DNA from: Zychaea mexicana
Taxonomy: Eukaryota; Mucoromycota; Mucoromycetes; Mucorales; Lichtheimiaceae
Length of the DNA: 64,000 nt
Reading direction: 5' to 3'
NCBI RefSeq assembly: GCF_025766255.1
Contig: NW_026516781.1
Span: 62,001 to 126,000 of the forward strand
Of the stretch, positions 16,294 to 17,170 are shown piece after piece (position 1 is the first letter of the stretch; every line of letters begins with the position of its first letter). The notes under the pieces are model-generated. The model was given only the letters and a program-made list of their open reading frames with translations, was not told the DNA's origin and did not search any database. The translations under genes and the position numbers were made by a program.

Positions 16294-17170
16294 ATGAAGT
16301 AAGAACATGATGAGGGCTATGTTAGGTTAAAACGAACGCCACGATTGAATGGATACATGGATTAGACGGACGGATGTATTGATGCGTTTATATTGGATGG
16401 ATGGATGAATGGAACTCTATAGGCTCGAGATTTGCTCCTTCTCCGGCTACAAGATCTACCCCTCCAAGGGTAAGGTTTACGTTCGCAGCGACAGCAGGTA
16501 AATTATTAAACTCTTTTGAAATACAATGCGGGGTATTTTATACATTTATGAACACTTTTATAACTTTTTATGTTTAAATTAAAAAAATAGAGTGAGTAAT
16601 TCAACAATTTTCTTCCCCATTCACGATCATGCGCAATCGAAAAAAACGAAACGAAAAAAAACAACGCGAAAATTTAAACAGTGAAGAAAAAAAAATTAAT
16701 TAATCGTTGCTGTGTATTCAAAAAAAAATTATTAGACCTTCCGTTTCCTCAACGGTAAGGCCGAATCGTACTTCCTTCAGCGTTTGAGCCCCCGTAAGAT
16801 CCGATGGACTCAAATCTACCGTCGCCTCAACAAGAAGGGTGTCACTGAACAGGTTGTCAAGAAGCGCACCCGCCGCACCGTCAAGGCCGAGCGTGCCGTT
16901 GGTGGTTCCTCGTGGGATGAAATCCGCGCCAAGCGTGCCGAGAAGCCCGAAGTCCGTGCTGCTGCTCGTCAGGCCGCTATTGAGAAGAGCAAGGAGAAGG
17001 CTAAGGCCAAGGGTGCTGCCAAGAAGGTATAGTAACTCGCTAATCTTTGTGGGGTTGCTCACTGATAAATCCTGGAATGGGTGTTTTTTTTAAAAATTAT
17101 GAATTGGGCTTATTGTATATTGATAACTTACCTGGTTGTTGTCTTGTTTGTTTAGGCTGGTAAGCAGTAA
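16294..17170 (+). CDS. RPL24: 60S ribosomal protein eL24
   Basis: Model: 16294..16298, 16423..16497, 16591 (one nucleotide), 16736..17026, 17156..17170 (128 aa). The protein opens MKLEICSFSGYKIYPSKGK, typical of eL24, then TFRFLN, PRKIRWTQIYRR and a Lys/Ala-rich C-terminus. eL24 bridges the large and small subunits. Exon 1 carries only ATGAA. Exon 2 ends in phase 2 (AG|GTAAAT), but the next obvious exon starts in phase 0 (ACC TTC CGT), so direct joining breaks the frame. A single A at 16591, flanked by TAG and GTGAGT, completes an AGA codon and gives RSDSRTFRFLN with no gap against known eL24 proteins. Skipping it would give a TGA at 16785. A one-base deletion in the sequence would explain the same data. 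Confidence 0.93.
16591..16591 (+). other. RPL24: Predicted 1-nt microexon of RPL24
   Basis: The sequence AAATAG|A|GTGAGT places one base between an acceptor AG and a consensus donor, 93 nt after the previous donor and 144 nt before the next acceptor. Its inclusion restores the eL24 frame exactly. After removal of the first intron the junction becomes AGCAGA|GTGAGT, a strong donor, so stepwise splicing is feasible. Confidence 0.6.

Follow-up and report, generated by a model that had tools for sequence, protein, structure and literature searches.

A putative one-nucleotide exon in the eL24 ribosomal protein genes of Zychaea mexicana

The gene for ribosomal protein eL24 of the Mucorales fungus Zychaea mexicana (Lichtheimiaceae) very probably possesses a constitutive one-nucleotide exon, an A that lies between two GT-AG introns and supplies the last base of the AGA codon for Arg27. 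Both the use of this base by the spliceosome and its constitutive use are deduced from the genomic sequence. The gene lies in the window, by which we mean the whole stretch of 64,000 nucleotides that was analyzed, and what appears there as a 238-nt intron after codon 26 would actually be two ordinary GT-AG introns flanking the single A. A second eL24 gene in the same genome has the same arrangement, and the gene models of relatives suggest an early origin of the exon within Mucorales.

The broken reading frame and its repair by one base

The layout of the gene is given in Table 1, in which, as in the text, slashes mark exon-intron borders. The first-pass annotation had read exon 2 as ending in phase 2 and exon 3 as starting in phase 0, which would make a two-exon junction frame-breaking, and the sequence and the coordinates agree with this reading: the joining of position 16497 to 16736 yields a coding sequence of 386 nt, which is not a multiple of three, and its product runs into R-P-S-V-S-S and meets a stop after 43 codons. 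When A16591 is included, the coding sequence amounts to 387 nt and encodes a gap-free eL24 of 128 amino acids. The translation thus bears out the earlier proposal that the single A in TAG/A/GTGAGT gives an AGA codon and an uninterrupted protein, and the paralog contains the arrangement too, though the annotation had been made from the window alone. The protein read with the A scores 103.5 bits against the Pfam profile PF01246, well over the cut-off of 27, and covers profile positions 1-65 of 66, while the skipped product scores 43.4 bits and a model that cuts out VRSDSR scores 77.5 bits. In both copies, the outer splice breaks the frame and the lone base stands between a canonical acceptor and a canonical donor, and the two halves of the apparent intron are of workable length for introns (93 and 144 nt in the window, 82 and 78 nt in the paralog). 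The first intron of the pair contains a branch-point-like TTATAAC, whose A is 27 nt upstream of the intron end in the window copy; the same heptamer occurs in the paralog, 19 nt before the end of the corresponding intron. The second intron of the window copy contains a weak branch-point-like sequence, which agrees with TACTAAC at no more than 4 of 7 positions.

Table 1. Features of the eL24 gene in the window and of the junction in the second copy
Gene	Feature	Position	Strand	Sequence and remarks
Window	Exon 1, coding part (ATGAA)	16294..16298	+	ATGAA/GTAAGA
Window	Intron 1, 124 nt	16299..16422	+	GTAAGA...ATAG
Window	Exon 2	16423..16497	+	...LEICSFSGYKIYPSKGKVYVRSDS + AG; phase 2 end; AGCAG then GTAAAT
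Window	First intron of the pair, 93 nt	16498..16590	+	GTAAAT...ATAG; TAG at 16588-16590
Window	Putative one-nucleotide exon (A)	16591..16591	+	Third base of AGA, Arg27; same layout in paralog
Window	Second intron of the pair, 144 nt	16592..16735	+	GTGAGT...TTAG; donor GTGAGT at 16592-16597
Window	Exon 3	16736..17026	+	TFRFLNGKAESYF...AKK; phase 0 start; ACC TTC CGT TTC after TTATTAG
Window	Last intron, 129 nt	17027..17155	+	GTATAG...TTTAG; not in paralog
Window	Exon 4	17156..17170	+	AGKQ + stop
Paralog, C101 (L007)	Exon 2 end	604		...GAC AGC AG/GTAATT
Paralog, C101 (L007)	Putative one-nucleotide exon (A)	687		TAG/A/GTAAGC
Paralog, C101 (L007)	Exon 3 start	766		After ATTAG

How readily such a motif arises by chance was estimated with 20,000 dinucleotide-preserving shuffles of the apparent intron, from which its first 6 and last 3 bases were held out. 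YAG/N/GTRAG appeared in 0.04% of the shuffles for the window and in 0.125% for the paralog. The bare AG/N/GT is frequent in the same shuffles (17% and 22%, respectively), and the evidential strength therefore resides in the full motif and in its occurrence in both copies. In addition, splice models with one or two introns were enumerated, allowing GT-AG, GC-AG, or AT-AC ends, introns of at least 30 nt, and inner exons of up to 90 nt, with the first donor placed from -30 to +20 nt of the known one and the last acceptor from about -20 to +10 nt of the known one. Within these bounds, the window gene has 46 frame-restoring models and the paralog has 43 (62 and 52 in a looser enumeration with other bounds), and VRSDS-x-TFRF is kept without insertion or loss by exactly one model in each, namely, that with TAG/A/GTGAGT and that with TAG/A/GTAAGC. 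The first-pass annotation had envisaged transcripts in which a different exon restores the frame; the bounded enumeration of canonical models offers no gap-free alternative of this sort in either gene. Longer inner exons of 7 to 34 nt, which would add 2 to 11 residues, were encountered once in the window and four times in the paralog, and none is common to both copies. A one-intron AT-AC model, available only in the paralog, changes a conserved Thr into Tyr.

The second eL24 copy and the gene models of relatives

A search of the Z. mexicana genome (50.3 Mb in 305 contigs) with PF01246 detected three loci: the eL24 gene of the window, which is on C22, another eL24 gene on C101, and a more distant gene on C240. 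Joined directly, the exons of the C101 gene fall out of frame as well and run into a stop after 43 codons; here, too, inclusion of the A repairs the frame. The coding sequences of the two eL24 genes differ by 27 synonymous changes and 1 nonsynonymous change in 118 compared codons, and 19 of the 57 fourfold sites are different. The interiors of their paired introns align no better than shuffled sequences, 264 and 407 of 500 of which reach the respective alignment scores, and what these introns have in common is their splice sites, the TTATAAC before the first acceptor, and the lone A. The preservation of the same frame break and the same motif in such diverged introns makes a chance origin very unlikely. 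The public protein P0001, which derives from the C101 gene, is identical to the translation with the exon, but the value of this match is weakened because AGA and AGG both encode Arg, and a protein sequence therefore cannot distinguish a one-nucleotide exon from a single non-canonical intron. The two genes also differ outside the junction. The C101 copy is without the last intron (L007 around 1050-1068) and has the C-terminus AAKK. Intron 1 of the window copy contains many GGAT-like repeats (about 16340-16413), and that of the paralog contains a run of CATC (L007 about 448-472), which is complementary to the GGAT-like unit.

Scans of viral and prokaryote genome collections with an alignment of 15 eL24 proteins, and a tblastn search of plasmids with P0001, detected no DNA from a relative. 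Gene models of other fungi were collected by three protein searches, from which the best 120 of 232, 764, and 1235 matches were taken; the second search scored 8000 candidates. Among the 201 proteins listed, 162 were grouped by name, and the remaining 39, which are unnamed or bear non-fungal names, were left out of the counts; two of the latter, P0091 and P0161, resemble Mucorales or Umbelopsis proteins in appearance and begin no earlier than the junction. Each protein represents a cluster of 90% identity, and several species are repeated, which means that the clusters are not independent. Among the matches listed, the length of the junction is kept in 19 of 61 Mucorales models, 0 of 6 from Umbelopsis, 16 of 16 from Mortierellomycota, and 76 of 79 from other fungi, which leaves damaged junctions in 42, 6, 0, and 3 models, respectively; damaged outgroup models may rank below those listed, though the third query, itself a damaged Umbelopsis model, should favor them. 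A strict pattern recognized 64 of the 79 models from other fungi as intact, and inspection by eye found 12 of the 15 misses to be intact as well, with KVYP, KIHP, or other flanking residues. A looser pattern accepted 74 of 79 other fungi and 18 of 61 Mucorales, and the counts are given as 76 and 19 because P0126, P0144, and P0014, which carry RIYP, keep the junction length. The 19 Mucorales models that keep the length include P0014 (Y for T), P0015 (I for T), P0022 (K for R), and P0023 (H for T). The three disrupted models from other fungi among the matches listed, P0108, P0150, and P0189, indicate that annotation fails at this junction elsewhere too; in P0108 (Thamnocephalis, GKTY-SFRL) and P0189 (Saitozyma, GKTY-TFRF), the end of exon 2 is cut outside Mucorales and Umbelopsis.

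The damage in the 42 listed Mucorales models takes several forms. The end of exon 2 is cut in 10 of them (nine reading ...Y/F-xFRF and one YVR-TFRF), and in 12, exon 2 is missing or is read in another frame. Another eight read DSR-V followed by R, S, or C, two read DSR-LSVS, two read DSR-Y, which represents read-through of the first donor with an insert, and eight have other forms. The eight models with R-V-R/S/C come from six species, i.e., Rhizomucor pusillus, Absidia glauca, Mucor fragilis, Lichtheimia ornata, Mucor circinelloides, and Rhizopus stolonifer, with two models each from M. circinelloides (one of them V-C) and R. stolonifer. R-V-R/S after DSR is what A/GTRAG would give when read as codons (AGA GTR AGN), with one model being GTNTG-like, a correspondence that fits the presence of the exon without proving it. 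The RLSVS sequence is the frameshift expected from the outer splice and occurs in models of Rhizopus arrhizus and Mucor hiemalis. Two Rhizopus delemar models, P0090 and P0097, fuse eL24 to an upstream PF09415 domain, which we take to be of the CENP-X family, and this fusion is perhaps a by-product of the unreadable junction.

Alternative readings of the junction

The alternative that survives best, although we regard it as very unlikely, is a single intron with one non-canonical end (AGCAGG/TAAAT...TAG/ACC or AG/GTAAAT...TTA/GACC), by which codon 27 would become AGG and the internal A would go unused. Such a junction is possible in both copies, which have AG/GT before and TAG/AC after the apparent intron, and translation with the added G gives, for each copy, the same protein as translation with the A. 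It would, however, require an odd splice site in each of the two genes, and it leaves unexplained the retention of TAG/A/GTRAG in two introns that are otherwise unalignable, as well as the R-V-R/S/C read-through in eight Mucorales models.

Far less probable is the reading that the true protein lacks VRSDSR, with a single intron starting from a GTTCGC donor at 16481 and a product of ...KVY-TFRF.... A canonical GT-AG model of this kind restores the frame in both copies, and 9 of the 61 listed Mucorales models are read in this way, including P0003 from the close relative Phascolomyces, as are two Umbelopsis models (P0038 and P0042). Nevertheless, GTTCGC is far from a usual donor, and the VRSDSR codons differ between the two copies only synonymously. 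Moreover, their counterparts are VRGDNK and ARTDGK in the two eL24 chains of known structure for which an alignment was displayed, and without them the Pfam score is 77.5 bits instead of 103.5.

Programmed ribosomal frameshifting or RNA editing, by which the base would be supplied after a simple outer splice, is comparably improbable: the frame break itself speaks for it and nothing else does, while neither process would conserve TAG/A/GTRAG within introns, and we know of no frameshifting or editing of such a kind in nuclear fungal ribosomal protein genes. The least probable explanation is a base missing through sequencing or assembly, which the first-pass annotation had raised and for which a one-base frame break would be typical, but the same break exists at two loci with different introns, this junction is also where the models of many other Mucorales go wrong, and the paralog, with TAG/A/GTRAG in unalignable introns, rules out such an error for practical purposes.

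Splicing, origin, and significance of the one-nucleotide exon

If the A is indeed an exon, its two neighboring introns would be removed stepwise, probably by intron definition, as has been proposed for the Arabidopsis APC11 gene (PMC4674806). The AG of the first acceptor would fall within the U1 footprint on the second donor, and thus the two sites could hardly be engaged at once, which argues for successive removal. Either order of removal would produce the same mRNA, ...GAC AGC AGA ACC TTC..., and skipping of the A would lead to the stop after 43 codons. In the mRNA of the paralog, ACT TTC would follow the AGA codon. The donor following the A (GTGAGT or GTAAGC) looks at least equal to the first donor (GTAAAT or GTAATT). 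The earlier idea that the removal of the first intron creates a strong second donor does not hold, since positions -3 to -1 are AGA both before (TAG/A) and after (CAG/A) that step. One could speculate that the early stop on skipping makes the exon an on/off switch for the output of eL24.

Among the closest known parallels is APC11 of Arabidopsis and other land plants, in which a single A between AG and GT is essential for the frame, and whose exon, with its proposed stepwise removal of the flanking introns by intron definition, was likewise overlooked by annotation (PMC4674806; PMC8831610). Experiments with cDNA and constructs in Arabidopsis have established the single-nucleotide exon of APC11 (PMC4674806). 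It differs from that of eL24 in residing in a plant gene, in having cDNA and reporter proof where the eL24 exon is predicted from sequence, and in that the genes and the introns are unrelated. The one-nucleotide microexon of land plant VPS55 resembles the eL24 exon in the strong, conserved GTRAGT donor directly after the base and in being unannotated in the reference genomes (PMC8831610). VPS55 forms with and without the base make two proteins (PMC8831610), whereas skipping in eL24 would destroy the protein. Exons of this size readily escape the mapping of reads (PMC8831610). In CYP621A of Fusarium (PMC12940212), as in eL24, a fungal nuclear gene has a frame-breaking apparent intron that is more than twice the median length, and the candidate base is the same in all orthologues examined in that study. 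On the other hand, CYP621A is a rarely expressed P450 gene of Ascomycota, its base is a G in AG/G/GT, and its exon is supported by SRA reads (PMC12940212). That study presents CYP621A as the second known case and the first from a fungus, while the VPS55 report (PMC8831610) is earlier. The first-pass annotation was right to cite plant APC11 as a precedent, but its side remark that no fungal ribosomal protein case was known has to be corrected to the extent that the fungal CYP621A exon is now published (PMC12940212). An exact-term search of open-licence literature found one-nucleotide exons reported neither for ribosomal protein genes nor for Mucorales. The stwintrons of ascomycete fungi are also comparable in that two introns have to be excised successively at one exon-exon junction (PMC5639578; see also PMC12403724). 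There, the two introns are not separated by an exon, and the internal one interrupts a splice element of the external one (PMC5639578), in contrast with eL24, where both introns are complete and one base is retained between them. A stwintron reading of the eL24 pair was rejected: removal of either intron leaves the GT...AG of the other whole, and one exonic base remains.

From the gene models, we infer an origin of the exon in the ancestor of Mucorales, or perhaps in that of Mucorales and Umbelopsidales together; in Umbelopsis, failure at the junction is all that the models display (6 of 6 listed). The C240 gene, which we take from its sequence to be of the RLP24 type, is interrupted here by one phase-0 intron (AGC AAG/GTAACA...AAAAG/ACC; L008 617-694), which matches the second intron of the eL24 pair in both phase and position, hinting that the shared intron position is older than the split between eL24 and the RLP24 type or was gained twice. 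Insertion of an intron at CAG/A, one base upstream of such an older intron, would create an exon of exactly one nucleotide. On balance, we slightly favor a scenario in which the exon arose once, before the split of Mucorales and Umbelopsidales, probably through insertion of an intron into CAG/A upstream of the older phase-0 intron, and has since been kept in the group and handled efficiently, so that most public eL24 entries of the group would be wrong. Nelson and Syed proposed a different origin for the CYP621A exon, in which an exonic base was lost and a cryptic exon made up for it (PMC12940212). An origin of that type might also be conceived for the eL24 exon.

The eL24 exon would be a new member of a very small known class; the nuclear members that we found in the literature, those of APC11, VPS55, and CYP621A, are outside ribosomal protein genes. 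For annotation, the finding suggests a rule, that YAG/N/GTRAG be sought wherever an intron of double length breaks the frame. Expression of eL24 is expected to be strong and constant, and deep RNA-seq of Mucorales should therefore reveal the efficiency and the order of intron removal. Interest in the exon goes beyond that of an isolated oddity on account of its possible age and spread, its location in a housekeeping gene, and the faulty eL24 records in the databases. If it proves to be order-wide, it would account for a large class of damaged public eL24 entries, and it would represent an old natural test of the spliceosome facing an overlapping acceptor and donor.
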